DNA of 64,000 nucleotides from assembly GCF_029233945.1 (NCBI RefSeq), contig NZ_JARGOQ010000003.1:1-64000 (forward strand), written 5' to 3'. The stretch is from Sneathiella sp. Lineage in GTDB: Bacteria > Pseudomonadota > Alphaproteobacteria > Sneathiellales > Sneathiellaceae. Positions 40,503 through 58,450 of the stretch are shown here, one piece after another. How positions within the stretch are numbered: the stretch's first letter is position 1; every line of letters begins with the position of its first letter. The translations under genes and the position numbers were made by a program. The notes beneath the pieces were generated by a model that was given only the letters and a program-made list of their open reading frames with translations, was not told the DNA's origin and made no database searches.

Positions 40503-40689
40503 ATCGACCTCCGTGGTTTTGCCTCGGCGGTACACCAGGGCTTGCACCGAGGCGAGCCCGGCACCTGAGGGAGGAGGCCGGGCTGGCGAGGGGAGGCGTT
40601 CAGGCATCCTTATATCGCCGTCACAGTACCGCTCTGTTGGCGGCGGAAGTCCAGTCCTTTCTGCACCGGGTGAACATCAGCCGGTTTGT

Positions 40690-41628
40690 TCACGCCGCCT
40701 TCTTGATCAGCCAGTCTATGAGACCTGCCTTCAGCGCCTGACCGGCGAGCGCAGCGGCGTCCATCAGGATGATGTCGCTGTCCCGGGCATCAAGACTTTG
40801 CTTGCTGGAATGATAGACGTAAAAATATTTATCCGCCGCCATCGCATTAAACTGCTCTATATAGTCATCAATCTGGGCCTGCCTGGTCGCGGACTTGACC
40901 TGGACGATCGCCCGCTCTCCGGTAGTCGGCAGCAGGAGCTCCAGATCAAGGGTCTTCTGGGTGCCACCAAGAGAACTGATGCGCTGCCAGCCGCTCCGGC
41001 TGAACAGGAGCTCGGTAAAGAGTTCAAAATCCTGCCAGGTGAGAAGCCGGATGATCACTTCGGTTGTCGCCAGCAACTGCCTGCGGGCGTCCTGCGCTGC
41101 CGTGATCTCGGGCAGGTCCTCGTCCTGCAGTTTGCGCAGCAGATAGTCAAACTGATCCGGCTTCAGGGTGCAGATGGTTCCCTGGTACGCGGCAACTTTG
41201 GTGAGATTGCCGCTCAGCTCGCCGATCAGCAGCGGCGTGCCCGAGAACGAGACCTTCTGCCAGCCCGATATCGTGCGGCGGAAGCGGCTTCCTTGCGGAT
41301 ATTGTTTCGGGTCACTGCCGAGATACTCGACGTCGGGGGCAAGTTCCGCCCACCAGAGTGATCCGCCGGAGAAGGTGACCCAGACAACATCGGGATCGGG
41401 ATCGTAAAAGCCGAGGATCTGACTGGCATGTCCGGTGGCGGTCCCTGCGGCTTTCCCCTGATCGAGAAAAACATTTCTGATGGCCTCCCGATCACCGGAA
41501 CGGGCCATCTCGTGGGGGACATCATAATAGGCGAGGGGAGCAATGCCCTCTTCCAGGCAATGCTGTTCCCATCCGCCCCGCACACCGAGTTTGATATAGC
41601 GTGCCTTTGTAAATGTCTTCCGTGTCAT
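40690..41628 (-). CDS. PD-(D/E)XK restriction endonuclease-like protein
   Basis: 312 residues. The C-terminal half has an Mrr-like nuclease core: DFELFTELLFSRSGWQRISS, Asp in KTLDLELLLPTTGER (about 228), and QVKS (Lys about 245). The N-terminal half (GGWEQHCLEEGIAPLAYYDV, WVTFSGGSLWWAEL, LSGNLTKVAAYQGTICTL) resembles nothing I can name and may recognise DNA. It could be a restriction enzyme against modified or foreign DNA. RBS AAGGAG lies just upstream of ATG, directly after a stem-loop. It faces the same way as the ParB-methyltransferase but about 1.1 kb downstream of it. Confidence 0.72.
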   Translation of the reverse strand: MTRKTFTKARYIKLGVRGGWEQHCLEEGIAPLAYYDVPHEMARSGDREAIRNVFLDQGKAAGTATGHASQILGFYDPDPDVVWVTFSGGSLWWAELAPDVEYLGSDPKQYPQGSRFRRTISGWQKVSFSGTPLLIGELSGNLTKVAAYQGTICTLKPDQFDYLLRKLQDEDLPEITAAQDARRQLLATTEVIIRLLTWQDFELFTELLFSRSGWQRISSLGGTQKTLDLELLLPTTGERAIVQVKSATRQAQIDDYIEQFNAMAADKYFYVYHSSKQSLDARDSDIILMDAAALAGQALKAGLIDWLIKKAA

Positions 41629-41641
41629 TGCTCCGAACTCC

Positions 41642-41749
41642 TTATAAAACTAAAAGGTCACCGGAGCGTTGCCGCTCTGGTGACCGGGAGTTAAGAAGTT
41701 GCAACGTGACAACCGCGACGATCTTTAGCCGTGAAGCCTGGACATACAT
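41642..41749 (-). CDS. Possible 35-residue ORF upstream of the nuclease
   Basis: On the minus strand an ATG at 41749 preceded by GGGAGG opens a 35-residue frame ending at 41642, 14 bases before the nuclease ATG. The translation starts MYVQASRLKIVAVV and ends in SGDLLVL. The region also forms stable RNA hairpins, so coding and structure may compete here; I cannot say which is selected. Confidence 0.25.
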   Translation of the reverse strand: MYVQASRLKIVAVVTLQLLNSRSPERQRSGDLLVL

Positions 41750-41930
41750 CGCCGCCTCCCGGCCATAGAGGACCGAAAGGCGGCATCATTCCGGCTGATG
41801 CCAGCCGCTGTGTGCAGGGTTCTTAAGCCCCGGCGGGTAAAACCATACCCGCGACCCGGACGTTAGCTTGCCGGGCCGCCGAGTTCAAGCGGATCAGGTG
41901 ATGGCTGGTCCGGTTTCCGCAGAACCGGGG
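41656..41930 (-). ncRNA. Candidate structured RNA or leader before the nuclease gene
   Basis: Between the DUF5681 gene and the nuclease gene lies about 320 bases of non-coding DNA packed with stable hairpins when transcribed leftward. The stems are CCGGTT/AACCGG (41910-41928), CCCGG/CCGGG (41855-41875), GCGGGTA/TACCCGC (41833-41852), and GGCATCA/TGATGCC (41782-41802), which competes with CGGCTG/CAGCCG (41792-41807). A 13-bp stem GGTCACC...GGTGACC (41656-41685) is followed on the minus strand by TTTTAGTTTTAT. The last looks like a terminator placed right before the ribosome site. Confidence 0.45.
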
Positions 41931-41948
41931 CGGACTGTGGCATTGATG

Positions 41949-42353
41949 TTAGCGGTTTTTCCAGTCTTCATCGTCGTCAAAGGCGCCAGGCGGCGGCTTA
42001 CGGGTCTTGTTTTTCTCTATTTGGTCCGCCATCCACTCTTCCGGTGTCATCTCGGCGGGGGCAAGCAGAACCCCGGAACCCTCGTTGATGATGCCGGGGC
42101 GGTACCTTTCCAGTATTTGTCCGAATTTCTTCATTGCCCGGGGGCGGGCGTCGTCCAGGGCCGCCTTGCGGAGATTGAGCAGGGTGATGTCCAGTAGCGT
42201 CCGCCGCTTTTTCCTGCCATCCTCCATCACGACATATTCCTGCAGCATGATATCCCGCAGCATCGTTTTAAGGTTTTTCGACCCCATTGGCCGTCCACCC
42301 GGATTGACGCCGTCTTTCTGGGTTCTTCCTCCTGTCTGGCCGTTATTCGTCAT
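41949..42353 (-). CDS. DUF5681-type small protein
   Basis: About 134 residues from ATG 42353 (GGAGAG upstream). The N-terminal 'GGRPMGSKNLKTML' after NPGG is the Gly/Arg-rich DUF5681 motif; later LLAPAEMTPEEWMADQIEKN is shared in spirit with the sister gene's MVAPKGITPEQYVKQYG. An 11-base overlap joins it to that gene. The family is common in phage-like islands and function is unknown. Confidence 0.7.
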   Translation of the reverse strand: MTNNGQTGGRTQKDGVNPGGRPMGSKNLKTMLRDIMLQEYVVMEDGRKKRRTLLDITLLNLRKAALDDARPRAMKKFGQILERYRPGIINEGSGVLLAPAEMTPEEWMADQIEKNKTRKPPPGAFDDDEDWKNR

Positions 42354-42747
42354 CGATGATCTCTCCATATTGTTTCACATATTGTTCAGGCGTTATTCCT
42401 TTCGGCGCGACCATCACTCCGCCGTCGCTTTCCGGAGGCGGGGTATCAATAAGGCCATGATCCTCGCAGAGCTCGACAAGCCGGATCAGGGGGGTGATTT
42501 CTCCTTTCATCATCTGCTGAACCATTCGCCAGACCATGGCTTCAAAGGGATGTATCTTTCTGGCTTTGCCGTTAATTTTCATAGCTACCGGCTCATCAAG
42601 AAAGGCCGAGATATCGACCGGGCCGGTCTTCCTGCTCTTCGGCCGCCCCTTCGGATTGCCCGACTGGCCTTTCTTCCAGCGGGTGTCTTTCGGCGGCCGG
42701 CCATGACCGACCTCATAGTCGCCATCAGGCTTTTTCCTGTCCGTCAT
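42343..42747 (-). CDS. DUF5681 domain protein
   Basis: 134 residues with the diagnostic VGHGRPPKDTRWKKGQSGNP followed by KGRPKSRK, a basic N-terminal motif of DUF5681. The rest is helical (HPFEAMVWRMVQQMMKGEIT). It overlaps the ParB-methyltransferase stop by four bases. DUF5681 genes are often near phage terminase or methylase genes; function not known. Confidence 0.8.
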   Translation of the reverse strand: MTDRKKPDGDYEVGHGRPPKDTRWKKGQSGNPKGRPKSRKTGPVDISAFLDEPVAMKINGKARKIHPFEAMVWRMVQQMMKGEITPLIRLVELCEDHGLIDTPPPESDGGVMVAPKGITPEQYVKQYGEIIDDE

Positions 42748-44096
42748 GACGCTCTCCCTTCTCGATTGATGACCGTGCCGGGGAGAGAGCTCTCACCGGA
42801 GTTTTCTGTTCGTTCCGCAGCTATCGCGTCAAATGTCTGGCCGGTCTCTTTATGGACCGCCGGAACGCCGGTGGCCTCTGCGAGCCGTCTGACAATGACA
42901 TCGCAGTACCGGGGATCAAGCTCGATGCCATAGCCACGCCGTCCGGTTTTCTCCGCCGCTATCAGCGTGGTACCGCTACCGGCGAAGGCATCCAGCACAA
43001 TGCCGTTCCGCTTCGAGCAGTCGAGAATGGCATCGGCAACCAGGGCGACAGGCTTTACTGTCGGGTGCAGGGCAAGATCCGCATCGCGGGTCTTGCCGAA
43101 GCTGTTGATCCCGGCGTATGTCCAGAGATTGGTGCGGTTGCGACCATGTTTGCCGAGCTCGACATTGTTGATATGTTTGCCCGTCCCGGCCTTGAAGACA
43201 AAGACCAGTTCATGCTGTGACCGGTAGAGCGATCCCATGCCGCCGTTGGTCTTGGCCCAGACGCAGATATTCATCAATGAAGAGTAGGAGAGCTTGCCCG
43301 CCGCATGCATCTCGCCGATATGGCGCCAGTCCATGCAGATGAACTGGACCGCGCCGTCCTGACTGAAGCAGGCGAGGTTTTTGAAGACGGTGCCGAGGAA
43401 GCCAGTAAAGCCCTCCTCGTCCATTTCCCCCGTCGCCATGGCGAACTCACGGTGGCGGACCTTGCCGAGGCCGCAGACATGGCCGTCGACGGGTACGTTA
43501 TAGGGTGGGTCGGTGAAGACCAGTTGCGCCTTGTCCTTTCCCAGAAGGGCAGCATAGACATTCGCATCGGTGGCATCGCCGCAGATCAACCGGTGTTTTC
43601 CGATCTGCCAGATATCGCCGACCTGCGTGATGGCCGGTCCGTTATCAACGAGAGGGATGTTCTCTTCAGGATCATCTGACGTCTCCGCATTGAGTTCACC
43701 GATGAGAATATCGATCTCGGGGGTCTCGAACCCGGTGAGGGTAATATCGAAGTCAAGATCGATCGTGAGAAGTTCCTGCAGCTCGATGGCGAGGATCTCG
43801 GGGTTCCAGCCGGCAAGCTCCGCAAGGCGGTTGTCGGCAATGATATAGGCCTTGATCTGTTCTTCTGTCAGATCCGCAAGGCAGAGCGTCGGCACGGTCT
43901 CGAGCTTAAGAAACCGCGCCGCCTCGATCCGGCCGTGACCAGCGATGACACCGCCCGTTCCATCGACCAGGACCGGGTTGGTAAAGCCGAACTCTTCTAT
44001 GCTGTCGGCGATCTGCCGGATCTGCTTTTTTGAATGGGTGCGGGCATTGCGCGCATAGGGCGTGAGCGCATCAAGGCGCTGAAGTTTTATTTCCAT
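42744..44096 (-). CDS. ParB-domain DNA methyltransferase (beta-class adenine type)
   Basis: About 450 residues from ATG 44096. The N-terminal ParB/Srx-like domain has YARNARTHSKKQIRQIADSI, GFTNPVLVDGTGGVIAGHGR and LTEEQIKAYIIADNRLAELA. The methyltransferase domain has the catalytic DPPY (VFTDPPYNVPVDG) before the SAM motif VLDAFAGSGTTLIAAEKTGR, which is the beta-class order seen in CcrM-like N6-adenine enzymes. The fusion is common in alphaproteobacterial mobile elements. It may mark element DNA or protect it from host restriction. Its leader holds an attenuator-like terminator. Confidence 0.9.
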   Translation of the reverse strand: MEIKLQRLDALTPYARNARTHSKKQIRQIADSIEEFGFTNPVLVDGTGGVIAGHGRIEAARFLKLETVPTLCLADLTEEQIKAYIIADNRLAELAGWNPEILAIELQELLTIDLDFDITLTGFETPEIDILIGELNAETSDDPEENIPLVDNGPAITQVGDIWQIGKHRLICGDATDANVYAALLGKDKAQLVFTDPPYNVPVDGHVCGLGKVRHREFAMATGEMDEEGFTGFLGTVFKNLACFSQDGAVQFICMDWRHIGEMHAAGKLSYSSLMNICVWAKTNGGMGSLYRSQHELVFVFKAGTGKHINNVELGKHGRNRTNLWTYAGINSFGKTRDADLALHPTVKPVALVADAILDCSKRNGIVLDAFAGSGTTLIAAEKTGRRGYGIELDPRYCDVIVRRLAEATGVPAVHKETGQTFDAIAAERTENSGESSLPGTVINREGRAS

Positions 44097-44142
44097 ATGT
44101 TTTATGAGCATGTTTGGCTCCTATAAAATCGGAACCAGCCAT

Positions 44143-44805: not shown

Positions 44806-45180
44806 TCAGGCGATGAGTGCGATGAGATCGTCTATCTTGCGCAAGCCCTTGTTTCCAAAGAGGTAGGATATGCCTCTATGCAGATGTAGTCTGAATTGCT
44901 GCGCGACTGTATCAGGGTCCGTTCCAAGGCCATCCCGGACACATCGCTCCTTTACCAAGGCAAGGTATAGGTCCGCGTAGCGTCCGCCGAAAACCTTCCA
45001 GCTCATCTCAACGTTACTATCGGCCGGGATCTTTGATTGCGGAGGCATACTCTGCTCGGCGAGCGATAAGCAAAGTGCCCAGCGGGCCAGAACGTTCCAG
45101 TGCTCGATACCGGTAACCCGCTTGAGTTTGATGAGTTGGTCTTTCGCCTGCTGTGAGAGGCGTATATGCTCTATGGCCAC
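44806..45180 (-). CDS. dndE: DNA phosphorothioation protein DndE
   Basis: 124 residues matching DndE: IRLSQQAKDQLIKLKRVTGI, EHWNVLARWALCLSLAE, and GGRYADLYLALVKERC. DndE is a small tetrameric DNA-binding subunit of the DndC-DndD-DndE complex that replaces a non-bridging phosphate oxygen with sulphur. The start is GTG at 45180 within TAGTG, overlapping the dndD stop by one base. It is the last gene of dndB-C-D-E. Confidence 0.93.
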   Translation of the reverse strand: MAIEHIRLSQQAKDQLIKLKRVTGIEHWNVLARWALCLSLAEQSMPPQSKIPADSNVEMSWKVFGGRYADLYLALVKERCVRDGLGTDPDTVAQQFRLHLHRGISYLFGNKGLRKIDDLIALIA

Positions 45181-46055
45181 TACGCCGCCTCCTTCTTTGG
45201 AAGGTAGCCAGGGGCGATATGCGTTGCTCCAGTCTTGTCATCATAGGCGAGTTGATAGGTGTGCCCGATCCACGGACGCAGGCGCTCATGATATTCGCCT
45301 GCTATTTCCTCATCAGTTGAAAGCAGCAATATCTGATGACTGGCAAAAGGTAGATAACGTTCAACCAGGTGCATCCGGTGAACGGAATCGAGCCGCCCCA
45401 GCGGGGTATCGATAGCGGTCGGCAATGGGCGTCCGGACGCCTTAGCAAGACCCCAAAGCAGCGCAATAGCAAGGAGCTGGCGCTCACCCGCAGACAGCCT
45501 TTCGGCGCTCAACGGTTCTTCGTCACGACCGTAAAGAGTGAGAGCGTAATCTTCTGGATTAATTGAAAGACGCGTGACAAGGGCGCTCTTGCGCAAAAGT
45601 TGCTGGTAGCTTTCCAGGACCAATTGCTCAATGCGTCTCACATGACGGGCGATCACGGCACGACGGAAAATTTCCAGGGTTTTGCGAACCTTTCCAGAAT
45701 GGCGCAAGATTCGTGAACGATCGTCGCGGTGGCCTTGGTCTTTCACATCGGCCTCCAACAGCCGCGCAAGTGCTTGTTCGCGGCGCTCCAGTTCGCGCTG
45801 CTGACGCTCAATATCCTGCTCCATAGCCGCATACGTGGCTTCGAGTTCGGCAATCTCGGCGCGAAGCTCTTCGCGTTCTTTGGCTATTTGCTCTACCGCA
45901 TCCGGGCTGGGAATACTTTCGTATTCAACCCGCGTCTGCTCTTCATGGGCGCGCCGACTGCGCTGTTGGGTAACAAGCCTGCCTGCATCATTACCGAGTT
46001 GGTCCAAATCTCCCCGCAGTAATGCGTGAAGATCGCTACGCACCTCCGGTGTCAT
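45180..46055 (-). CDS. dndD: DndD, C-terminal part after a frameshift
   Basis: The 291-residue continuation of DndD in another frame. It keeps the second half of the coiled coil (about 30-150), the ABC signature RLSAGERQLLAIALLWGL and the Walker B region TAIDTPLGRLD, followed by HQILLLSTDEEI. The same frame extends upstream without a stop past the end of the N-terminal part (FLLGQKDTVLG), so homology is continuous and one base is missing. The internal ATG at 46055 lacks a clear ribosome site. If no recoding occurs, this half may not be made at a useful level. Confidence 0.85.
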   Translation of the reverse strand: MTPEVRSDLHALLRGDLDQLGNDAGRLVTQQRSRRAHEEQTRVEYESIPSPDAVEQIAKEREELRAEIAELEATYAAMEQDIERQQRELERREQALARLLEADVKDQGHRDDRSRILRHSGKVRKTLEIFRRAVIARHVRRIEQLVLESYQQLLRKSALVTRLSINPEDYALTLYGRDEEPLSAERLSAGERQLLAIALLWGLAKASGRPLPTAIDTPLGRLDSVHRMHLVERYLPFASHQILLLSTDEEIAGEYHERLRPWIGHTYQLAYDDKTGATHIAPGYLPKKEAA

Positions 46056-46078
46056 GCCAAGGACAGTATCTTTTTGGC

Positions 46079-47143
46079 CTAAAAGAAAGTCTTGAGAGCA
46101 TCGATTGTTTTTTTCGCCGTTTTCTGCACACGCATATGTTTAAGCACGGCTTTGTCTCTATCGTTAAGTGCATCCGCAAGTTCGCGGGCACGGCGGCAAT
46201 CTTCCTCATGCTGATCTCTCAATTCTGCTGAGTCGAGAAGAACACGCACCAGAAGCAGGGGAGAGGCGCCACCGGCAAAATCCCGCAATGCAGCCTCGCC
46301 GTCCTCGACCCGCTGAACGGAATCCGACCATTTGCTTTCAATTGCGCCCCGGTGGTCGTAGAGAGTGCCGCCAATTTTGCGGTATTTTTCCTCCACTTTC
46401 TTCAATGCGCGCTGCTGCTTATCGATCCGATGTGTCTGCAACGCCGCGCGTTCTTGTTTCAGGGCATCAAGGCGGCGCCGCAGTTCCCGCACCGCGTCCT
46501 GTGCTGATGTGATTTCAGCGTGCCGTGGCGTATCTTTGTTTTCCGAACGTTTGCGGCGCTCATAGACCAGCAAATCCTTTTCAAGCTGGTCAACCATATC
46601 CAGTCCCAACAGGTTCTGGATAGCCGCACCAATCAGGGTCGAAGAGTCGGTTTGCGAGGCATAGGCTTCAACTTGCTCACCGTCGAATAGGAACAGATGG
46701 GCGATATTGGCAGGGAAGAATTCTTCAACCTGGGTAGCCCAGTTATCCGCCAAAGTCGGTTCGGGTTGACCGTTTTTTAGTACCTCAAATCTCTCTTTGC
46801 AGCCGCTGCTTGATAGTTTCCAGAAGCGACGCAGGTGATAGTGCTCCTCTGACCCTTCGACTGTATGGCGAAAGCTGATTTCAATTCCGGATTCAGTGTT
46901 GCCTGACCTTCTGTGTATGCAGCGGGAAAGATACTCTGAATAAGCAAGTGAGCCTCGATTGGAGCACTTTGCATGAGGTCCGAACAAAACCAATTGTAGA
47001 GCGTCAAGGAACGTTGTTTTCCCTCCGCCGTTCAACCCGCCGATCAGGACAATGGGTTTGTTGGGAGCTGGAGGTGTCAAGCCAACACGCTGCGTGCCCC
47101 GATAAAGTCCAAAATTATGGAGTATGATTTCGTCTAGGATCAT
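46079..47143 (-). CDS. dndD: DndD, N-terminal part (SMC-like ATPase), ends at a frameshift
   Basis: 354 residues: N-terminal strand LDEIILHNFGLYRGTQRVG, Walker A GGLNGGGKTT (about 35-44), a Q-loop region with LFLFDGEQVEAYAS, then coiled coil. DndD is the ATPase of the phosphorothioation complex and is normally about 660 residues. Here the frame stops at a TAG inside TTCTTTTAGG near 46080, and DndD homology continues in the -1 frame (see the C-terminal part). One extra T in the four-T run would restore the gene. The start overlaps the dndC stop (ATGA). Confidence 0.9.
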   Translation of the reverse strand: MILDEIILHNFGLYRGTQRVGLTPPAPNKPIVLIGGLNGGGKTTFLDALQLVLFGPHAKCSNRGSLAYSEYLSRCIHRRSGNTESGIEISFRHTVEGSEEHYHLRRFWKLSSSGCKERFEVLKNGQPEPTLADNWATQVEEFFPANIAHLFLFDGEQVEAYASQTDSSTLIGAAIQNLLGLDMVDQLEKDLLVYERRKRSENKDTPRHAEITSAQDAVRELRRRLDALKQERAALQTHRIDKQQRALKKVEEKYRKIGGTLYDHRGAIESKWSDSVQRVEDGEAALRDFAGGASPLLLVRVLLDSAELRDQHEEDCRRARELADALNDRDKAVLKHMRVQKTAKKTIDALKTFF

Positions 47144-48672
47144 TTGCAGGCCTCATCGAACAAAGATGAGGGGGCTTCTACAGGCGTAAGTTCATCCTTG
47201 GCGCGTTCTCGTGCTTCACCGAGCGCATCGCGTCTAACTCGTGCTCTTTGGACAGCATCGCCCTCGTCTTCGTAGAAATTTCTGTAAAATGAGGATTCAA
47301 GAGCGTCGTATAGACCCGCGCGGCGTAGCATGGATTTGTGCCGCTTCTCAATCGAGAGCAGTTCACGTACGAGCTGGAAGTGCAGTTCATCACTACTACA
47401 TAGCTCACGCAATAATTCCATTTCCATCGCACCTATGACGAGATTATCATCCAGGCTGCCGCCCGGATATCTATTTCCAGTGGTGTCTTCATAAACGCGC
47501 GGCAGGTCGTCTTCGATTTCGTGCTTTTCGACGACCCAGACGCGCCGAATTTCCTCAAGCTCTTCGAGTGTGATCAGTTCGATATCGCGAACTTCGTCGG
47601 GCCCGTTTTCGCGGATATGCTGCTGGGCTTCGAGCACCTGACGCAGCCACATTTCACGGGCTTTTTGCTTGTAAGGCCCGGGAATCGGCCTGTCATTATA
47701 TAGTTGGACCGCACCGTTCATGCGTCGAAAATCCCGCAATGGACGGTCACCGTCCGGTGTTTTTGGAGGATCGAGCCGATTTCGCAGCTCAAGAAGCGGT
47801 AACATCCACTCCTTTTCCTCATCGTTCTGAATCATTGCGTGCATCGACTTGTCTTTTTCGACAAGCGTACATACCCAGCATCCGAAACGACTGTCGCCAC
47901 AGCTCGGCGTGGTTGTATCGACGACAAGCGGGCATTCGCCGTCGGCCGAAGCACCCTGATACATTGTCAGCAAGTCTTTGTTATTGTAGCCCCAGGGATT
48001 TCCCACCTGCATGAGAAACAGCCAAACATCGTCGTTCGACCAGTCTTCGATTGGTGAATAGACGTAGGAGTTGGGCAGACTGCCGTTCGGGCTTAAACGG
48101 TTGCGGACCCTTTTTTGCTCGAAACGTTCCATCACCTTCGCGCGCGCCGCACTTTCGGCTTTCCGCGTTCCGAGAACAAGGATGGCTTCTCCGTGCTTCT
48201 GGACGACCGAATTAATGAATTGCGTTGATGGGTTGATTTTCAGACGTTCGGTACACCATCTGAATTTCGGTCGGGGTGCTGGATATCCGCGCCCGATGAG
48301 GTTTACCCAGAACGTGTTTTCCGGCGCGGGCGTCAGCTTGTGTGCAGTCAGCGGAAGGCCCTGATTGGCAGCCTGCTGGCTCATACGGTCAAGCGACTTC
48401 GAAACCCACAGAGAGACGACGGGATTTTCAACCAGCGTATCGGTGCTAATGACATATACCGGCTTGGAGCGCTTGTTCTTTGGCAAGTCGGCAAGCGTCA
48501 GCCAGACAAGCTGCAAAACAGCTGTAGAATCTTTCCCACCGCTGTAGCCAACCACCCATGGGATCTCGTCCGACAAATAAAGATCAACGATTTCCTGCTT
48601 GAGCGCTTCAATCGTCTTCTTAAACCCGACGGCTGAAAATGCCGAATTACGCTGTGGCTTTTTTGATGCCAT
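47140..48672 (-). CDS. dndC: DndC, phosphorothioation sulphurtransferase (PAPS reductase-like)
   Basis: About 510 residues from ATG 48672. The PP-loop VVGYSGGKDSTAVLQLVW (about 40-57) identifies the ATP pyrophosphatase domain. Cysteines in FRWCTERLK and in CGDSRFGCWVCTLVEKDKSM fit the 4Fe-4S cluster of DndC. It activates the phosphate and receives sulphur from DndA. I chose the ATG with GGGGGG just upstream; the frame is open 18 codons further into dndB. It overlaps dndB by 26 bases and dndD by four. Confidence 0.94.
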   Translation of the reverse strand: MASKKPQRNSAFSAVGFKKTIEALKQEIVDLYLSDEIPWVVGYSGGKDSTAVLQLVWLTLADLPKNKRSKPVYVISTDTLVENPVVSLWVSKSLDRMSQQAANQGLPLTAHKLTPAPENTFWVNLIGRGYPAPRPKFRWCTERLKINPSTQFINSVVQKHGEAILVLGTRKAESAARAKVMERFEQKRVRNRLSPNGSLPNSYVYSPIEDWSNDDVWLFLMQVGNPWGYNNKDLLTMYQGASADGECPLVVDTTTPSCGDSRFGCWVCTLVEKDKSMHAMIQNDEEKEWMLPLLELRNRLDPPKTPDGDRPLRDFRRMNGAVQLYNDRPIPGPYKQKAREMWLRQVLEAQQHIRENGPDEVRDIELITLEELEEIRRVWVVEKHEIEDDLPRVYEDTTGNRYPGGSLDDNLVIGAMEMELLRELCSSDELHFQLVRELLSIEKRHKSMLRRAGLYDALESSFYRNFYEDEGDAVQRARVRRDALGEARERAKDELTPVEAPSSLFDEACK

Positions 48673-49759
48673 TTGCCCCCCGCTTGTACGCGTCTTCAAC
48701 ACGCAGTTCATCATCCGATAGCTCAAGGCCCAGATGGGTCTTGATAGCGTTTGCAGTTAGGACGACGTTTTGATGTGCTTTTGAAAGCTGCCCGCCGACT
48801 AGGGCGCGGCCTTCCCACAATGGACTGTTCGCACGTCGCCAGTCTATAGTCTTTAGCTTTACGATCTTCGTTTGCCACGTCTTGGGATATTTGGAGATGA
48901 GCGTTCGACCTGCCCGCGCCAATGCTTGCAGCACCACGCCATGAGTGTGGATAAAATCCGTACGCACTTCACCAGCGGTCAGATCGCCGCTGCGAACCTG
49001 CTCCCACTCATCCATCTGCGCCGCTACAGTCTCCCAGAATTCAAGCGCAAGCCGGGCCGCCTCTTCAGGAGTGGACTCCTGCATGCCGTTCAACAGCTCG
49101 GTCGTTGCATGGTAAATTGCACTCAGGGTAAAGAGCCGACGGGAACGTTGTGCAAGGCTGGTTTTTTCCAGCTCAACTACATCACCAAATATATTGGAAC
49201 CCGCAATCAGCGACTTCACAAACCGGGCCGTTTCATCACGATAGTCATAGAGAATGCTGAGTGATGTGGATGGCCTGATGGCATAGCGATTGAGGTCTGC
49301 AAACATCTGCTGGCAGCGTTCCAGCCCTTTATCGAGAAAAAAGACAACAGCGATGGTCTCATCGCCTAGCTCGGGATGGTTGCGTAAGGCAAGGTCGATG
49401 GCTGCGCGGCGATGCTGACCGTCATTGATGATGAAACGCGCTGACATAGGAATTTTCAATATGCCGATTCGATTGGCTTTCCCCTCTCCAGCGAAAGGGG
49501 CGAACGCGATATCGGCATCTATGGAGACGGTAATGGCCGAAAAAACGTAGTTATCTTCATTTTCCGTGATGTAACGGGAAAGTTCTGGAATCCGTGCTCT
49601 GTTAAGCTGTCGCTGCGCCCGTAGCTCGGGTGCGAGTTCGTCCTCGTCGAACTGGAACAGTTTGGGTAAAAGCCGCATTGGGCACATGGAAACATAGTAT
49701 TCCCGTTGCGCCTGAATGCCCCTAATGGCGGGAAATTGATACTCAAAACCGTCGCTCAT
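48647..49759 (-). CDS. dndB: DndB, DGQHR-domain protein of the phosphorothioation locus
   Basis: About 370 residues with the family motif SARFIINDGQHRRAAIDLAL and MFADLNRYAIRPSTSLSILYD. DndB proteins in Streptomyces and Salmonella act as transcriptional repressors of the dnd genes and are not needed for sulphur insertion itself. First gene of dndB-C-D-E. ATG at 49759 (AAAAG upstream) preferred over TTG at 49771. It sits beside the short divergent region that it may control. Confidence 0.92.
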   Translation of the reverse strand: MSDGFEYQFPAIRGIQAQREYYVSMCPMRLLPKLFQFDEDELAPELRAQRQLNRARIPELSRYITENEDNYVFSAITVSIDADIAFAPFAGEGKANRIGILKIPMSARFIINDGQHRRAAIDLALRNHPELGDETIAVVFFLDKGLERCQQMFADLNRYAIRPSTSLSILYDYRDETARFVKSLIAGSNIFGDVVELEKTSLAQRSRRLFTLSAIYHATTELLNGMQESTPEEAARLALEFWETVAAQMDEWEQVRSGDLTAGEVRTDFIHTHGVVLQALARAGRTLISKYPKTWQTKIVKLKTIDWRRANSPLWEGRALVGGQLSKAHQNVVLTANAIKTHLGLELSDDELRVEDAYKRGANGIKKATA

Positions 49760-49828
49760 ATTTCTTTTCAAACCGAAAGGTTATAGGATACAGATATACT
49801 GAATCACAGTAACCGAAGTTTGTCAAAT
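49760..49828. promoter_or_regulatory. Divergent dndB/dndA control region
   Basis: Some 60-70 bases hold the promoters of both dnd transcripts. A TATACT box (49795-49800) serves the dndA side, and on the other strand TATCCT with TTACTG 16 bases upstream could serve dndB. AACCGAA occurs twice in direct orientation exactly 40 bases apart (49771 and 49811), and the first copy lies in the palindrome AACC-GAAA-GGTT. These are candidate DndB sites. Confidence 0.45.
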
Positions 49829-50998
49829 ATGAAACATACGTTTGCATCTACATACAAACAAGATGGCGGTCCAGTTTATCTAGACTGCAACGCTACATCC
49901 CCTATCGAGCCGAAGGTTCGGGACGCGGTAATTCAGTGGATGTCGGACGAATTGGGTAATGCGGGGAGCCGTACTCACGAGTACGGGCTTCGCGCCAAGC
50001 GAGCTGTCCAGCAGGCTCGTGAACAAGTGGCGGCGGTTGTTGAAGCCGCCGGTGACGAAATTATATTCACGAGCGGAGCGACGGAAAGCAACAACCTCGC
50101 GTCCCTCGGTTTGGCAGTCTTTGGCGAAGAAACGAACCGCCGTCACATTATTTCGACGGCCATTGAACACAAGGCGGTTCTGGAGCCGCTGGAGGCTTTG
50201 GAGGCCAGAGGTTTTTCGGTGACGCTGGTGCGACCGGATAAGAACGGTCTCATTTCAGCTGATTCGATCAAGGATGCGCTGCGCCCCGACACCTTACTTG
50301 TGTCGGTGATGCATGCGAACAACGAAACAGGCTCGATCCAACCGCTCCGGGAAATCGCAGACATTTTGGATGACGATGGCGTCTATTTTCATGTCGATGC
50401 CGCACAGGGCTATGGCAAAGACCTTGAGCCTCTGCGCAGCAAGAGAATCGATCTGATCAGTATAAGCGGCCACAAGATTTATGGGCCGCTCGGCGTTGGT
50501 GCACTCGTTGCACGACGGCGTGGCTTCAAGCGTCCGCCGCTCAAGCCGCTCGCCTATGGCGGCGGTCAGGAGCGTGGTTTGCGGCCCGGCACCCTTCCGG
50601 TTCCTTTGATTGTCGGGCTTGGCGTGGCGGCGGAAACCGCGCTAAAGGAACTGGCAGCTCGACAAGAACGGTGTCGCGTTATCCGTAAGGAAGCATTGGC
50701 CGCCTTGGAGCCGCTGGGAATCCGGACGCACTCCGCCCCGGATCACACATTATCGCATGTTTTGAATTTTTCTGTTCCCGGTATCGATTCCGAGGCCATT
50801 ATGGTTACGCTCAAGGATGTCGCGGCTGTCTCTAACGGTTCCGCCTGCACCTCGCAAAGCTATTCACCCAGCCATGTCCTTGAGGCCATGGGGCTGCCGA
50901 AAGAAGCAATTTCCGGTGCGATCCGCGTGTCCTGGTCACACCTGACCCCCGACGTTGACTGGCCCTTGCTGGCCGCGCGGATCGAAACTCTCCGATGA
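49829..50998 (+). CDS. dndA: DndA, cysteine desulphurase of the phosphorothioation system
   Basis: About 389 residues, NifS/IscS family: VYLDCNATSPIEPKVRDAV, GATESNNLASLGLAV, PLP lysine in ISISGHKIYGPLG (about 216), and the catalytic Cys loop NGSACTSQSYSP (about 340). It provides sulphur for DndC. It is split from dndB-C-D-E and leads the rightward operon, an arrangement seen in several genomes. ATG at 49829 chosen; a TTG three codons upstream is possible. Its stop overlaps the next ORF (ATGA). Confidence 0.9.
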   Translation: MKHTFASTYKQDGGPVYLDCNATSPIEPKVRDAVIQWMSDELGNAGSRTHEYGLRAKRAVQQAREQVAAVVEAAGDEIIFTSGATESNNLASLGLAVFGEETNRRHIISTAIEHKAVLEPLEALEARGFSVTLVRPDKNGLISADSIKDALRPDTLLVSVMHANNETGSIQPLREIADILDDDGVYFHVDAAQGYGKDLEPLRSKRIDLISISGHKIYGPLGVGALVARRRGFKRPPLKPLAYGGGQERGLRPGTLPVPLIVGLGVAAETALKELAARQERCRVIRKEALAALEPLGIRTHSAPDHTLSHVLNFSVPGIDSEAIMVTLKDVAAVSNGSACTSQSYSPSHVLEAMGLPKEAISGAIRVSWSHLTPDVDWPLLAARIETLR

Positions 50999-51201
50999 TG
51001 ACGAGGCAGGTACGAATGAGCTATGGCAGAAGAGGCAGGAAAGGTCGCTCTGCAACTTTTTGCAAAGCAAACTTTTTTATGAACAAAAACGAGATTCTGG
51101 TCTCCCGCTACGAACGATGTTGCGCAAGGTGGTATGACGATGGGGATCGTATGGATCGAGGGAAGAGATCAATTCAAGGGGGGCACTGTCACGACCAATG
51201 A
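50995..51201 (+). CDS. 68-residue basic protein between dndA and the helicase
   Basis: A 68-residue frame that starts at an ATG overlapping the dndA stop (ATGA) and ends in a TGA overlapping the helicase ATG (ATGA). Such exact coupling at both ends argues that it is translated. The protein is Arg/Lys-rich (MSYGRRGRKGRSATFCKANF), with later cysteines in YERCCARWYDD and GGHCHDQ, and no membrane segment. I recognise no family. Rho or RNA-binding roles would be guesswork. Confidence 0.5.
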   Translation: MMTRQVRMSYGRRGRKGRSATFCKANFFMNKNEILVSRYERCCARWYDDGDRMDRGKRSIQGGHCHDQ

Positions 51202-53099
51202 GGTTGCGCGATATTAAATATCAGGAAGACTACCGGTCCGGATACGATAGCATCGTTGAAGCTTTCTTCCGCCCGTCGCTTGCTCAGGCCGAAGCTTATT
51301 GGCGTGCCGTTGGTTATTTCTCCAGCAGTGCGTTGGAATCATTCGGTGCTCCCTTGGGAGAATTCATCAAGAACGGCGGCCATATCAGACTGATAACATC
51401 GGTCGAACTTTCCCATAACGATCTCGAGGCGATCCGGAACGGCATACCTAAGCAGGATATCTGCGCACAGCGTCTTGAGCAGATCATAGAAACGGACTTT
51501 GCGGACGGAGTCGGCGACGGAACGGCACGTTTGATCCGATTGCTGGGACTGGGTCGCCTGGAGATTCAGATTGCGGTGCCAAAGACCGGAACCGGCATCT
51601 ATCACGAAAAGATCGGGCTGTTTTTCGACGGCGAAGACTATGTGGCTTTTACCGGATCATCGAACGAAAGCCGCAACGCATTCGAAAACAATCGAGAATG
51701 CGTGGATGTTTACCCTTCATGGATCAGTACCGTCCGCGCGCCCCGCAAAAGACAGCATTTTGAAGACCTTTGGGAGGATAACGATAAAGGCGTAGACGTT
51801 TATAGCTTTCCTGATGCGGCCCGTCAGCAACTGATAAGAGCTTGCGGCGAATGGGAAGCTGGCCACAGACAGCGCAAGCATCAAGAAAAACAAAACAAGT
51901 GGCGTCACCAGGACGATGCGCTCGATGAGTTCCTTGCGGCCGAGCGCGGAATCCTTAACATGGCCACCGGAACGGGTAAGACCCGCACCTCCCTCAAAAT
52001 TCTGCGCGCGCTATACGAACGCGACAGCATTGACACGGTGATTGTCAGCACGGACGGTAATGACCTGCTCGACCAATGGTATGCAGAACTACTCAACGTA
52101 CGCAAAGACATTGGCGCGAAAGTGTTCCGCCATTACAAATCTTCCCGCGAAGTCGAGGGTTTTCTGCTTAAGCCGAAGAGTGCGATCCTCCTCGTTTCAC
52201 GCCAACCTCTGGCATCGGCTCTGCGCCAGTTGCCTGCCGAACTCGGGCAGAGGACACTGCTTATCCATGATGAAGTCCACGGATTAGGTAGCCCTGCGAA
52301 CCGGAACAGGCTCGACGGGATGTCGGATAACATCCGCTTCAGGCTGGGCTTAAGCGCGACGCCGGAGCGCGAGTACGACGATGAAGGGAACGCCTTCCTC
52401 TCAACGCATATCGGCCCGGAACTGATGCGGTTCGAGCTGGACGACGCGATCCGCCGCGAAATCCTAGCCCCATTCGATTATTTTCCATTGCCCTATGAAC
52501 TGACGGCGGAAGACCGGCAGCGCGTCCGCGACGTTTACAAGCGGCAGGCGGCGCGCGCAGCCGCCGGTAATCCAATGAGTGATGAGGAAGTCTGGATAGA
52601 GATCGCCCGCGTCTACAAGACTTCCCGAGCCAAACTGCCGATATTCGACAGCTTCATACGCGAGAACCAGCATCTGCTTGAGCGGTGTATCGTGTTTGTC
52701 GAGACAAAAGAATATGGGGATGAAGTACTGGAGATCATTCACAAATACCGATCAGACTTCCATACTTATTTTTCGGGGGAAGAGTCCGAGACCTTGAAGC
52801 GCTTTGCGCGCGGCGAGCTGGAATGCTTGATCACCTGTCATCGTGTATCGGAAGGAATCGATATTCGATCCCTGAATTCAGTGATCTTGTTCTCTTCGGC
52901 CCGCGCTCGGCTTGAAACAATCCAGCGTATGGGCCGCTGCCTGCGAACCGATCCGGACAATCCGGAAAAGATCGCAAACATCGTCGATTTCATCCGACAA
53001 TCGGATGAGGGCGGCGAACAGAATGCTGATGAGGAACGCGCGGAGTGGCTGATAAATCTCTCCATGGTGCGTGCGGGGGAGACGATAAGTGGCAATTGA
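51198..53099 (+). CDS. PLD-nuclease/DEAH-helicase fusion, Dnd-associated restriction enzyme candidate
   Basis: 633 residues. Residues about 15-180 are a phospholipase D-like nuclease domain with YHEKIGLFF (HxK about 136-138) and FTGSSNESRNAFENN. A superfamily 2 helicase follows: motif I ATGTGKTRT (about 256-264), DEVH (about 358-361), motif III GLSATPERE, and motif VI near TIQRMGRCLRTD. The layout fits the family known to me as 'DNA phosphorothioation system restriction enzyme'. It probably cleaves or remodels DNA lacking, or carrying, phosphorothioates. It is the second gene downstream of dndA. Confidence 0.88.
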   Translation: MRLRDIKYQEDYRSGYDSIVEAFFRPSLAQAEAYWRAVGYFSSSALESFGAPLGEFIKNGGHIRLITSVELSHNDLEAIRNGIPKQDICAQRLEQIIETDFADGVGDGTARLIRLLGLGRLEIQIAVPKTGTGIYHEKIGLFFDGEDYVAFTGSSNESRNAFENNRECVDVYPSWISTVRAPRKRQHFEDLWEDNDKGVDVYSFPDAARQQLIRACGEWEAGHRQRKHQEKQNKWRHQDDALDEFLAAERGILNMATGTGKTRTSLKILRALYERDSIDTVIVSTDGNDLLDQWYAELLNVRKDIGAKVFRHYKSSREVEGFLLKPKSAILLVSRQPLASALRQLPAELGQRTLLIHDEVHGLGSPANRNRLDGMSDNIRFRLGLSATPEREYDDEGNAFLSTHIGPELMRFELDDAIRREILAPFDYFPLPYELTAEDRQRVRDVYKRQAARAAAGNPMSDEEVWIEIARVYKTSRAKLPIFDSFIRENQHLLERCIVFVETKEYGDEVLEIIHKYRSDFHTYFSGEESETLKRFARGELECLITCHRVSEGIDIRSLNSVILFSSARARLETIQRMGRCLRTDPDNPEKIANIVDFIRQSDEGGEQNADEERAEWLINLSMVRAGETISGN

Positions 53100-53301
53100 T
53101 ATTCGGATCACACAAGCCATTAACGAAGCTGTCAAGGAAGCGGGACAACCAGAAACATTGGCCCGCCGCCTGATCGCGTGGTTCGAAGCCGTGACGTCAG
53201 GGAACGAAGACATCAATGACCAGGCCACAACGGCCCGGCATTTGGAAGTCCTGTTCGAAGGCACCATTGTAGAAAACACCGATATAGAGGACGAAGACTG
53301 A
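53089..53301 (+). CDS. 70-residue protein of the Dnd-linked operon
   Basis: A 70-residue acidic protein (start GTG 53089, inside the helicase end; stop overlaps the next ATG as TGATG). MAIDIRITQAINEAVKEAGQ and TARHLEVLFEGTIVENTDIE suggest two to three helices. Small middle components like this accompany ABC-type ATPases in some defence systems, which is suggestive only. No enzymatic motif. Confidence 0.6.
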   Translation: MAIDIRITQAINEAVKEAGQPETLARRLIAWFEAVTSGNEDINDQATTARHLEVLFEGTIVENTDIEDED

Positions 53302-55280
53302 TGCCAGCCGTCATGCGCATTCTCGGTTGGAAGGCCCAGGGCCTCCGGTGTCCCGACCATGAAATCAGTTGCGCGGATTCAGATGGCCAGCCCTTTCCCG
53401 TATCTCTCATCCAGATGCCGAACGGCACCGGCAAGACGACAACGCTGGCATTGTTGCGGGCGGCCTTATCAGGTGCCGCCGCCGCTCCCGGTTGGGACCG
53501 GCATACGATAGCGGAGTTTCGAAAGAGAAACAGCGATGCGCCTGACGGGTCTTTTGAGGTACGTCTACTTCTTAACGACAGGCGCGCGACTATCGTTATG
53601 GAGTTCGATTTCGAGAATGGCCGTGTGGCTTACAAGACTACGCACGGACCAGGGCGACGCGACGGATTTCATCCGCCGTCTGATTTCAGGCGCTTCATGA
53701 ATGAGAATTTCGTCAATTTCTATGTCTTTGACGGTGAGTTGGCGCAGCACCTCCTCGACAGGGAATACACGGATGCTCAAGTCGTCGTGGAAAACCTGTT
53801 CCAGATGAACGCCTTTGATGCGATGGCGCGCAAAGTCGGTGAGTACTGGGACAGTAAAACGCAAAACGTCAGCGCGACCGAGGAACGCGGACTGGCCCGG
53901 CGGCAAAATCGCTTGACCACTCTCAGAAGTCATCTAGCCAAATGTAAGCGCGAACAGCAGCAGGTACAGGAAAAGCGAGCGGACATCTCTGCCCAGCTTC
54001 AGAAGAAGGAAGATGCCTATCAACAGGAAATCAAAAAGGAAGACGCACGCTTTCAGGCATTGAACGATGCGGAAACAAAGGTTGAGCGACTCAAGGGAAA
54101 GGTCCGCGAAGAGGCGCTGGACGTGCTTGACCGGATGCGTGATCCACATGCTCTTTCTTCCTCGTTTGCAACCTCCATGCTGGCCCTCAAGGACGGGCTC
54201 GACAGAGTAAAGCTGCCCGAAAGTGCAGCGCGGGAATTCTTTGAAGACCTGGCAAGTGAGACGGAATGCGTCTGCGGCAGACCGATTGATGCCGAAATCG
54301 CCGCGACGATCCGTACCCGCGCAGCTCGATATCTTGGCACCGAGGATGTTGCGCTCCTGAATTCCATGAAGACGTCAATAAAGGACGCCATTGGTGACGA
54401 ACCGGATGAAGGTGAGAAAGACCTGAACACGCGAATAGCAGGTCTGGGATCAGCCGTAGAAGAAGAGCACGAAGCCCGCAATGATAGGGACTCCCTGAGG
54501 CTTGAAGCCGAGCAAGCTGACCCCGCCGTCAAGAGCGCCCGGGATGACATCGAGAGTTTGCGGAGCCAGATCGAGAGTGTTGATGATGATCTGGAAAAGT
54601 TTGAGAGCAAGGATCAAACGCAAAACGACGAACGAACATACGGGATCGAAATTCTCGAAAAGCGGATAGATGACGCGGAAAGGAAGCTTGCGGAGATCAC
54701 ACATACGCTTACGGAGAAGGCCAGGCGTGACGCCCTGACGGTCATTATCAACAGTGCGCACAAGAAGGCCCGCGCCGGGATTACTTCGGAACTATGCGAC
54801 CAGGCCAACGCACGCATATCCGAGTTGATGCCCGACAACAACATTTCGATTGATCGGATCGAACAAAACCTGATCCTAGAAGGCCAGGAAGGCGGCAGTG
54901 TGGGCGAAACGCTTTCCATTGCATATGCGTTCCTCGCGACGCTATTTCATCGATCCGACCATCAACTTCCTTTCGTTGTAGATAGCCCGGCTGGCCCAAT
55001 CGATCTCGCCGTCCGCCCGAAAATCGGAGAGCTTATCCCTAATTTGACGGGCCAGTTCATCGCCTTCACGATTTCCTCGGAACGCGCCCGCTTCATCGCG
55101 CCGCTTAAGCGCGCCAGTAACACCGATATTCAGTTCATCACATTATTCCGCAAAGGCTCGGACGAGCTTCAACGGGCGGCCCATGAGAAAGGGAACGTTC
55201 TGGAGACGGGCGACGGGCTGAACGTTACGGGCGAAGACTTCTTCAATGCGTTTCAGCTCGAAGAAGAGGAGGCTGTCTGA
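53301..55280 (+). CDS. SMC/Rad50-like ATPase of the Dnd-linked operon
   Basis: 659 residues. Walker A QMPNGTGKTTTL (about 38-49), a Q-loop-like NFYVFDGELAQHLLDREY, and a long coiled coil split by a CxC hinge (ETECVCGRPIDAEIA), which recalls the Rad50/DndD zinc hook. The signature region GGSVGETLSIAYAFLAT and Walker B FVVDSPAGPIDLAVRPK complete the ATP site. It looks like a distant DndD relative and might form the restriction-side partner of the dnd complex. It overlaps its neighbours by one base on each side. Confidence 0.85.
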   Translation: MPAVMRILGWKAQGLRCPDHEISCADSDGQPFPVSLIQMPNGTGKTTTLALLRAALSGAAAAPGWDRHTIAEFRKRNSDAPDGSFEVRLLLNDRRATIVMEFDFENGRVAYKTTHGPGRRDGFHPPSDFRRFMNENFVNFYVFDGELAQHLLDREYTDAQVVVENLFQMNAFDAMARKVGEYWDSKTQNVSATEERGLARRQNRLTTLRSHLAKCKREQQQVQEKRADISAQLQKKEDAYQQEIKKEDARFQALNDAETKVERLKGKVREEALDVLDRMRDPHALSSSFATSMLALKDGLDRVKLPESAAREFFEDLASETECVCGRPIDAEIAATIRTRAARYLGTEDVALLNSMKTSIKDAIGDEPDEGEKDLNTRIAGLGSAVEEEHEARNDRDSLRLEAEQADPAVKSARDDIESLRSQIESVDDDLEKFESKDQTQNDERTYGIEILEKRIDDAERKLAEITHTLTEKARRDALTVIINSAHKKARAGITSELCDQANARISELMPDNNISIDRIEQNLILEGQEGGSVGETLSIAYAFLATLFHRSDHQLPFVVDSPAGPIDLAVRPKIGELIPNLTGQFIAFTISSERARFIAPLKRASNTDIQFITLFRKGSDELQRAAHEKGNVLETGDGLNVTGEDFFNAFQLEEEEAV

Positions 55281-55768
55281 TGCTACCGTTCCGGCTACGT
55301 TTGGATGCACGTCAGTGGTTCAAGGACCTCCGCGACCAGAGGGTGTTTAAGACGGATTTCGATGCGTTCTATTTCTGCTTCGTCGCGGGCGTGACAGTCA
55401 AACGCAAAGAAGCCGTCCCGCTGGATGAAACCGCCGAACTTGTGGCGTACTTTCCTGACAGGTACAGCTCGCGCGGCAAGTTGCTCGTCGGATTGTTCCT
55501 CAAATCGGAACTTGAGGTTCTTGGCGTGTCGATGGATGAACGCCGCGAAGTGCATTCGGCAATCGCGCATCTAGTCACTCCGGAAGCTCCTAATTTTTTG
55601 AGCGATGAAGGTGTCCGGGAGTTCAATAAATACGCGCATGGCGGGTACGAGCAACTTATCGAGTGGTTTGAAGACCGTCCCCGCTCGCTGGAAACATTCC
55701 TGCGCTCCTATAAGCGACGAGTAGACGCTGCACTGAACGGCGCAGATAGCGAATTGGCACATTCATGA
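55280..55768 (+). CDS. 162-residue unknown protein of the Dnd-linked operon
   Basis: No family recognised. The protein starts MLPFRLRLDARQWFKDLRDQ, has FDAFYFCFVAGVTVKRK and VHSAIAHLVTPEAPNFLSDE, and ends in a basic helix (LETFLRSYKRRVDAALNG). It is soluble and probably alpha/beta. Its start and stop overlap the ATPase (one base) and the DUF262 gene (four bases), so it is a fixed part of the operon and may be a subunit of the ATPase complex. Confidence 0.65.
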   Translation: MLPFRLRLDARQWFKDLRDQRVFKTDFDAFYFCFVAGVTVKRKEAVPLDETAELVAYFPDRYSSRGKLLVGLFLKSELEVLGVSMDERREVHSAIAHLVTPEAPNFLSDEGVREFNKYAHGGYEQLIEWFEDRPRSLETFLRSYKRRVDAALNGADSELAHS

Positions 55769-57603
55769 CAATCGAAACGGCTCATCAATCCATCACCGTA
55801 CTCTTCGAACAGAACCAGACATTCGAAGTGCCAAAATATCAGCGCGAGTATGCATGGGATGCTGATGCAATTGAGGACTTCGTGGAAGACCTCGGCAAAT
55901 GTGTGAGTGCAAGACATCAGGGAGAAAAGAGAAATCATTTTTTTGGTGGGATTGTGAGCGCCCGGTTGAACGTCCCCGGCTCAAGCCGCCCGAGTTACGA
56001 GGTAATCGACGGACAGCAAAGAATATCGTCCTTTGTTATGCTGGCCGCGGCCGTTGTGTTTTCGATGAAGGAGATATCGGCTGGTATTGAGGACGACGAG
56101 GAGTCTTCTGAAGAAGATGGGAAAGCACTCGGCTATCTACAGCAAACCATCGCCAAGATCGAATCCTTATATCTGACTCACCGCTATGCGGTGGGGCTTG
56201 AGTATAAAGTCGTTCCTAAGCTTACGCTTTCGAAGGCGGACAATACGTTTTTCCAGGCGATTCTGACAGGAGGCGATCCTGCGACCGAGCGCCCCTCTCA
56301 CGAGCGGATCAAATTTGCCTGGAAGCGTTTGAAAGCATTTCTGTCATCTGAACTCGAAGGCGAGAAGACTGCTTCGGGGCAGGCGACCAAGCTTCAATAC
56401 CTGATTGACCATGTGCTCGCCGAGGACTGCACGGTTATCTTCATGTGGTCCGACAATCGCTCAGAAGCCTACCGCATTTTCCAGGTGCTCAATGACCGGG
56501 GCGTGAGTCTAACAAATGGTGATCTGCTGAGGGCGAGGACCCTCGAACTGCTCGATCATGCGCCAGTCGCTGCCACCCAGAACGAGCTGGCCGAGCGCTG
56601 GGACAGCACACTGGCATATCCCCCTACGTCGATTGACGATTACCTGCTCTGGTACTTCGGATCTTATGAGGGCTACAGGCCCAAGCAATCCGATGTAACT
56701 GATAGTTTTATGGTGGTCCGTTTTGCCGAGTCATCGCTTTCAAAGCCGATAACTCAGACGCAGGCTGGTAAGGTTTTAGGTGAGGTAAAACGGCTTGACG
56801 ATGAATTTGCACTCTTGAACCAGCTCAACAACGGCGAGTGGCCCTACATTGATCAGGTCGGTGTCACGCAATGGGACGTAGAGCGATTAAACCTACTGGT
56901 CGGACATCTCAAACATACAAATGCGATGCCTCTGCTCATGGCTCTGCAGTTGCTCGAACCAAAGCGGTTTGCGGAAGCCGTGGCGTCATTGGAGCGGTTT
57001 GCGTTTCGGTACAAAACCATAGGCAACGCTCATATCAGCCCGGCGACCAAGTTATATCATGAGCACGCACTGATCATTCGGAAAGACCCGACCAGCTACA
57101 AAGTCGGAACGCTGCGGGCAGCACTAACAGAGCTGATTGAAAAGTATGCTTCGGGCAAACGCTTTTCAGCAGCCGTCAGTGAACTCACATACTCGATCCG
57201 TGGCGGTAATGGTCATATCAGATATCTGCTCATCACGATTGAAGACTACCTCCAATGGTACGATGAGGGTGCCAAAGGTGCTCCTGTATGCAAAGACAAG
57301 ACGCGGGTATTGGATATCGCTAACACGACCTTGGAGCATATTTATCCGCAAAAGCTCGATTCCAAGGATAGTGTTGCCGAACTGGAACCGGCCAAGCATT
57401 TTCTTGGAAATCTGACCATCCTCGGTCCGGACGATAATGATGCCGCTGGGAACAAAAATTTCGCCGAAAAGCGCATTGCTTTCGAAGAATCGAACCTTCG
57501 CATTAATCGCCAAATCGCGAAGAACAAGTCATGGGCGAAAGCGGATGTCGATAAGCGCACAACGCTGCTGGCGGAGATAGCTGAGAAGATTTTCGTGCCC
57601 TAA
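55765..57603 (+). CDS. DUF262/DUF1524 protein of the GmrSD/SspE type
   Basis: 612 residues. The N-terminal DUF262 domain has VPKYQREYAWDADAIEDFVE, HFFGGIV and EVIDGQQRISSFVMLAA, the ParB-like NTPase motifs. The C-terminal DUF1524 HNH nuclease has TLEHIYPQKL, FLGNLTILGPDDND and NKNFAEKRIAF. The family includes GmrSD, BrxU and SspE; SspE senses phosphorothioates and nicks invading DNA. Here the gene is translationally coupled to a Dnd operon rather than to SspABCD. Likely a phosphorothioate-stimulated nickase (inference). No intrinsic terminator is obvious after it. Confidence 0.88.
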   Translation: MTIETAHQSITVLFEQNQTFEVPKYQREYAWDADAIEDFVEDLGKCVSARHQGEKRNHFFGGIVSARLNVPGSSRPSYEVIDGQQRISSFVMLAAAVVFSMKEISAGIEDDEESSEEDGKALGYLQQTIAKIESLYLTHRYAVGLEYKVVPKLTLSKADNTFFQAILTGGDPATERPSHERIKFAWKRLKAFLSSELEGEKTASGQATKLQYLIDHVLAEDCTVIFMWSDNRSEAYRIFQVLNDRGVSLTNGDLLRARTLELLDHAPVAATQNELAERWDSTLAYPPTSIDDYLLWYFGSYEGYRPKQSDVTDSFMVVRFAESSLSKPITQTQAGKVLGEVKRLDDEFALLNQLNNGEWPYIDQVGVTQWDVERLNLLVGHLKHTNAMPLLMALQLLEPKRFAEAVASLERFAFRYKTIGNAHISPATKLYHEHALIIRKDPTSYKVGTLRAALTELIEKYASGKRFSAAVSELTYSIRGGNGHIRYLLITIEDYLQWYDEGAKGAPVCKDKTRVLDIANTTLEHIYPQKLDSKDSVAELEPAKHFLGNLTILGPDDNDAAGNKNFAEKRIAFEESNLRINRQIAKNKSWAKADVDKRTTLLAEIAEKIFVP

Positions 57604-57668: not shown

Positions 57669-58322
57669 ATCACTAAAATTTCCTTCCGTTATTTCAAATA
57701 TTCACCCTAGATCATCCGCCTTGCGTTGATAATGTACGTCAGATTTCCTCTTTCACTTCGCAATGTCGAAGACCTTCTTCATGAGCGGGGCATTGATATC
57801 TGTCATGAAATAGCCCGTTATTGGCGGAACAAATTTGGCCTGATGTTTACTCGTGAAATCCGTAAGAAGCGGATTCATCCATCTCACAATTATTCAAATT
57901 GGAAATGGCATCTTGATGAGGCCTTCGTAAAGAATAATGGCGAAACACACTACCTGTAGCGTGCCGTTGACCATGAAGGAGAAGTTCTGGAAGCCTTTGT
58001 TTCCAAGCGACGCGATCGCAAAGCAGCAATGGTTTTCCTTAAGAAACTTATGAAATGGTATGGAAGACCGCACAAATTTGTCACAGATCGGTTGAAATCA
58101 TATCGTGCGGCTATGAAGACCATCGGAAATGCCGAGGTTTAAGAGATCGGCCGGTGGAAAATCAATCACTGTGAAAACTCCCATCTCTCGTTCCGGCGAG
58201 GAGAGCAGACAATGCTGACATCCAGGCACCTGCGAAGTATACGGAAATTTCTATCTATTCACGACACTGTCCAAAATCTCTTCAATCATGAATGCCGCAT
58301 TGGACAAGTGGCAGCAACATAG
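57669..58322 (+). pseudogene. IS6-family transposase remnant
   Basis: In one frame the translation follows an IS6-type transposase almost end to end: IIRLALIMYVRFPLSLRNVE, DLLHERGIDICHEIARYW, HLDEAFVKNNGETHYL, RAVDHEGEVLEAFVSKRRDR, VTDRLKSYRAAMKTIGNAEV, CENSHLSFRRGEQ and HDTVQNLFNHE. The DDE residues are still visible, but there are in-frame stops at 57708 (TAG), 57957 (TAG) and 58140 (TAA), and the start codon is ATC. No terminal inverted repeats were found by eye. It is a dead insertion just downstream of the Dnd operon. Confidence 0.85.
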
Positions 58323-58450
58323 TGCGGCATAAGAGTGGCTTATTTACGCCATTTTTGACATACATTGTCGAGGTCGCATTCGTCTGACAGCACACGCTAA
58401 AGCTAAACTCTTCTCGGGTTATTCATATCTCTTAAGAGCAGGTGCTATTT

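Follow-up and report, generated by a model that had tools for sequence, protein, structure and literature searches.

Two divergent gene sets occupy positions 44806–57603 of the window, the whole 64,000-nt stretch of Sneathiella sp. DNA analyzed here. Four dnd genes run on the reverse strand (−): dndB (48647–49771; TIGR03233, 516 bits versus a cut-off of 328), dndC for the phosphorothioation (PT) sulfurtransferase (47140–48726; TIGR03183, 685 bits versus 290), dndD, which is divided between two ORFs in different frames, and dndE (44806–45180; Pfam DndE, 145 bits, with TIGR03184 above its cut-off). The 5′ part of dndD (46079–47143), carrying the Walker A half, matches positions 1–354 of the PADLOC DndD and PbeC models, and the 3′ part (45180–46055), with the signature motif and the Walker B half, matches their remaining length from position ~375. 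On the forward strand (+), dndA, encoding the cysteine desulfurase (49820–50998; TIGR03235, 512.6 bits versus 480), leads a chain that ends with dndI. Profile searches placed dndA, dndB, dndC and dndE past all curated cut-offs. A putative short divergent control region (49760–49828, unstranded) separates the likely start codons (ATG) of dndB and dndA, as judged from sequence and alignment, and a comparable short spacer was present in the aligned related loci L002–L005. ORF coordinates, strands and overlaps, re-read from the sequence, agreed with the earlier description, and the six ORFs said to overlap end to end after dndA were recovered, with successive overlaps from dndA through dndI of 4, 4, 11, 1, 1 and 4 bases. 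Of the divergent dndBCDE and dndA-led operons described in the original prediction, the genes and their order stand; all five modification genes dndABCDE are present, but the modification operon is not intact, dndD being frameshifted. As had also been stated, the locus contains no dndFGH-like gene; genome-wide searches with TIGR03237 and TIGR03238 gave no match and prove little, because their controls were equally silent.

The first ORF after dndA, 68 aa long (50995–51201, +) and originally counted as a component, is probably a non-coding spacer between dndA and pbeA, judging from its pattern of change. No family match was found in Pfam, PADLOC and TIGRFAM profile searches. Its mismatches to the Eilatimonas milleporae locus (L002) are spread evenly over codon positions 1/2/3 (14/13/18), in comparison to 12/6/76 for pbeD. 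The matching frame in L002 lacks a corresponding ATG and continues into pbeA, and that of Sinorhizobium meliloti 4H41 (L004) contains several stops. Given the even mismatches and an ORF not kept in either relative, we rejected it as a gene.

Four of the remaining ORFs are PbeABCD, one to one; the original prediction had rightly named this haloarchaeal system as the closest relative. PbeA (51198–53099, +) fuses a PLD-like domain to an SF2 helicase (PADLOC PbeA, 891 bits; Pfam PLDc_2, ResIII and Helicase_C). A search of PbeA for the HKD motif as H-x-K-x4-D gave no match; the region reads HEKIGLFFD, one residue longer, which makes nuclease activity uncertain. PbeB (53089–53301, +; 70 aa) is a small CxC-system protein (Pfam Sp-CxC, 85.6 bits versus a cut-off of 27.5), consistent with Rakesh et al., who equate PbeB with the Sp-CxC-type small protein (PMC10853773), and with the CxC name that deposited annotation gives the small protein in related Rhizobium and Halorubrum plasmid loci. 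For PbeC (53301–55280, +), the PADLOC PbeC models match best but weakly (59 bits), and a CVC at residues 323–325 of 659 corresponds to the CxC at the coiled-coil apex, the Zn-hook that separates CxC ATPases from SMC according to the same authors (PMC10853773). By this motif and the PbeC/DndD matches, PbeC is a CxC-type ABC ATPase related to DndD, and the earlier label of an SMC-like protein was dropped.

The link between PbeD (55280–55768, +; 162 aa) and DndE was visible only by fold comparison, as a sequence-only search of the PDB returned no useful connection and the TIGR04062 match was weak. The predicted structure (pLDDT 88, pTM 0.85) had the two solved DndE structures as its top PDB matches, 4lrv (Z 7.5, rmsd 3.4, 100 aligned) and 5wtu (Z 7.2), followed by the next match at Z 4.7; Foldseek alone also placed DndE first, weakly (E 1.1). 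On this model, PbeD is a DndE-like double RHH protein, and Rakesh et al. equate it with a DndE (PMC10853773).

The last gene (55765–57603, +) encodes a DUF262/DUF1524 protein (GmrSD_N, 116 bits in Pfam, with GmrSD_C also matched) that PADLOC already lists as ‘Orf5’ (691 bits). It had been called SspE-like, and SspE does share the DUF262 and HNH architecture. The closest solved relative, however, is Salmonella DndI (9JFL), matched over the whole length with 277 bits versus 26 bits for SspE, and a profile built from six DndI copies matched DndI with 418 bits and SspE with 60. Furthermore, sspBCD are absent here, the neighbors being dnd genes. In a phylogenetic tree, the six copies grouped with a Salmonella DndI-like protein (L099; support 100/98), and 28 other GmrSD proteins lay outside this group; the exact places of L099 and L063 are unsure because of long branches. 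By sequence comparison the protein is therefore DndI, not SspE. SspE is activated by PT and DndI is restrained by it (PMC11662687). Residues with assigned roles in Salmonella are retained: Y25 aligns to Y25 of 9JFL (F in the L063 copy), for PT sensing; DGQQR lies at 82–86, for the ATPase, where R87A is inactive; and H525 and N558 are invariant in all six copies, N558 aligning to N541 in the HNH, where N541A strongly reduces activity (PMC11662687). As Salmonella DndI nicks DNA and its ATPase is stimulated by PT (PMC11662687), PT-stimulated ATPase and nickase activities are predicted for the present protein by analogy.

The island sits after era and tRNA-Ser(GCT). Between these and the dnd genes follow a large serine recombinase (37941–39683), a DUF2924 protein, an Mrr_cat protein and a ParB-methyltransferase; between dndI and the right flank lies the remnant of an IS6-like element that recurs across the genus. 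The corresponding era-tRNA-Ser pair of the sister genome G342 leads into other cargo, and a right flank sharing 98% identity with the present one appears 13.8 kb further along, so the island probably represents mobile cargo in an integration hotspot (window 36106–44111 and 57684–58393) with putative element ends. No att repeat of the tRNA-Ser was found near the right end; a single 12-base match to the tRNA lies inside dndI and was taken as chance.

The full set, dndEDCB and dndA-pbeABCD-dndI, recurs in identical gene order in Eilatimonas (79–93% protein identity) and Sinorhizobium (53–90%), which confirms these dnd, pbe and dndI genes as genuine. In three further alphaproteobacterial loci, from Methylobacterium bullatum (L036), G425 (L062) and G705 (L063), pbeABCD followed by dndI likewise stands beside dnd genes, with PbeD read from the frames and PbeB presumed. 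Recurrence beside dnd genes, which the original prediction would take as support for a system, was thus seen in six loci, the present one included. Gene identities, order, overlaps, recurrence and the retained DndI active-site residues are direct observations. DndI directly follows pbeD in six of 14 evaluable Pbe loci, a set that counts the near-copies L037 and L038 and leaves out L003, where the sequence ends too early; the fetched stretches of the other eight (L005, L037, L038, L041, L042, L043, L044 and L095) lack dndI, so Pbe and DndI are not obligate partners. Conversely, among the 385 and 398 genomes sampled, Orf5-type matches above 600 bits were confined to G000, G425 and G705, all pbe-linked; the more distant GmrSD proteins retrieved (≤225 bits) lacked neighboring dnd or pbe genes, except for one partial DndA-like match in L052.

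Several Pbe loci carry other accessories. RelA/SpoT-domain and DndB-like proteins were found in L044 (11631–14774), which additionally encodes a GIY-YIG protein, and in L043 (3005–5739), and a sigma-r4 protein in L037 (5412–8937); in such loci a nucleotide-signaling accessory may take the place held here by DndI. The Shinella plasmid pShin-05 (L100, 8744–9471) contains only pbeD (54% identical), next to an IS21 element, and a short gene directly upstream, probably the remnant of a pbe operon.

The closest known type is DndCDEA-PbeABCD of Haloterrigena jeotgali (PMC6459918), to which the CxC ABC-ATPase system of Rakesh et al. (PMC10853773) corresponds. Haloterrigena likewise has its pbe genes next to dnd genes, as a cassette of four in the same order, with PbeB and PbeD of 66 and 152 aa versus 70 and 162 aa here. 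The present locus differs by a dndI added at the chain end, by the presence of dndB, by dndA leading the pbe operon with dndBCDE divergent, and by the frameshifted dndD. In Salmonella Cerro 87 (IscS-DndBCDE-DndI), DndI is from the same clade and agrees in its sensing, ATPase and HNH residues, but shares ~30% identity and is co-transcribed with dndFGH, whereas here it follows pbeABCD; DndI has been published with DndFGH or DndBCDE (PMC11662687). Mixing and matching of Dnd with CxC systems and added nucleases, the combining principle seen here, is also published, the available part of that work not naming a DndI-Pbe pairing (PMC10853773). A text search of literature mostly outside subscription journals found no account of PbeABCD and DndI as one unit. 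The locus is, therefore, a recurrent composite of known modules that we did not find described as a unit. The original prediction knew of no described system with this set; against that, four of the genes show the one-to-one PbeABCD match that it had itself named as counting against its reading. Its combination of two effector types with PT-modification genes in one operon was borne out.

We consider it likely that the locus is a PT defence island of three known modules, DndABCDE marking, PbeABCD and DndI, the latter two being PT-reading effectors. The family and structure matches, the recurrence of the set and the grouping with Salmonella DndI support this reading, as does a PbeA tree in which the two DndI subgroups are mirrored; loci without dndI are placed in those parts of it as well. 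By analogy with published relatives, DndABCDE would mark self DNA at a short motif by placing sulphur in its backbone. PbeC and PbeD, a second DndD/DndE-like pair, would together with PbeA and PbeB block replication of unmarked invading DNA; in Haloterrigena, PbeABCD needs PT and all four genes and stops replication (PMC6459918). DndI would nick DNA that lacks the mark, whereas on marked DNA its ATPase would be stimulated by PT and the DNA released. Both effectors would read one and the same mark, and their joint action may provide two defence layers. A tighter arrangement, in which PbeABCD and DndI form one co-inherited alphaproteobacterial machine with a PbeC/PbeD scanner and the PbeA helicase delivering or gating the DndI nickase, here alongside a split DndD, strikes us as quite improbable.

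The state of dndD bears on whether the three-module island is active in this strain. Three relatives (L002, L004 and L005) have one intact 663-aa dndD frame with 28 additional bases at the break site, which lies mid-protein and parts the Walker A half from the half with the signature motif and Walker B. A programmed frameshift looks unlikely: inspection by eye revealed no convincing slippery heptamer, and a gap of 28 bases suggests a deletion instead. That an assembly error has split an intact gene is improbable: the genome is in 114 contigs, but relatives differ by 28 bases rather than by one base of a homopolymer. The frameshift has probably cost this strain its PT marking unless the two DndD halves assemble. 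Each half would supply one coiled-coil arm along with a portion of the ATPase head, and pairing through these arms could let marking continue. The mid-protein position of the break and the ATG at 46055 that opens the second ORF fit this rather doubtful reading; the missing 28 bases and the lack of a clear ribosome-binding site ahead of that ATG do not. Very improbable is a substitution by which PbeC and PbeD replace DndD and DndE in guiding the PT enzymes, so that marking survives without dndD. PbeD has the DndE fold, PbeC is a DndD relative, and Rakesh et al. regard such pairs as the modification core (PMC10853773); in Haloterrigena, however, the roles are divided, dndCDEA supplying PT and pbeABCD the defence part (PMC6459918).

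If PT marking is lost, DndI should harm the host or must be silent, as published DndI is harmful to PT-lacking cells (PMC11662687). We give slightly less than an even chance to decay, with Pbe and DndI carried as passengers without present function since the frameshift. The broken dndD, the IS6-like remnant adjoining dndI and the reduced Shinella plasmid locus beside its IS21 element are consistent with such decay. However, every other gene is open, and change relative to L002 is third-position-biased in both dndD halves (codon-position mismatches 48/26/174 and 33/18/131), so that the break is recent or tolerated. Under decay, moreover, dndI would be expected to be lost first because of the published harm. 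In this strain the locus may thus have no activity, damage its own host or function by way of a split DndD.

The DndI locus of Salmonella Infantis SARB27 (L099, 16273–18274) provides another case of a disrupted dndD, which is likewise in two frames, possibly through sequencing error; this locus contains dndBCDE and a DndI-like gene, with dndFGH not annotated nearby.

Each effector is known alone, and Pbe stops replication without visible cutting. With a pbeABCD-dndI chain that recurs and is co-inherited, recruitment of a separate nickase by the Pbe complex becomes open to test, and the combination of an intact dndI with a broken dndD in one strain offers a test of whether DndI is really harmful without PT.
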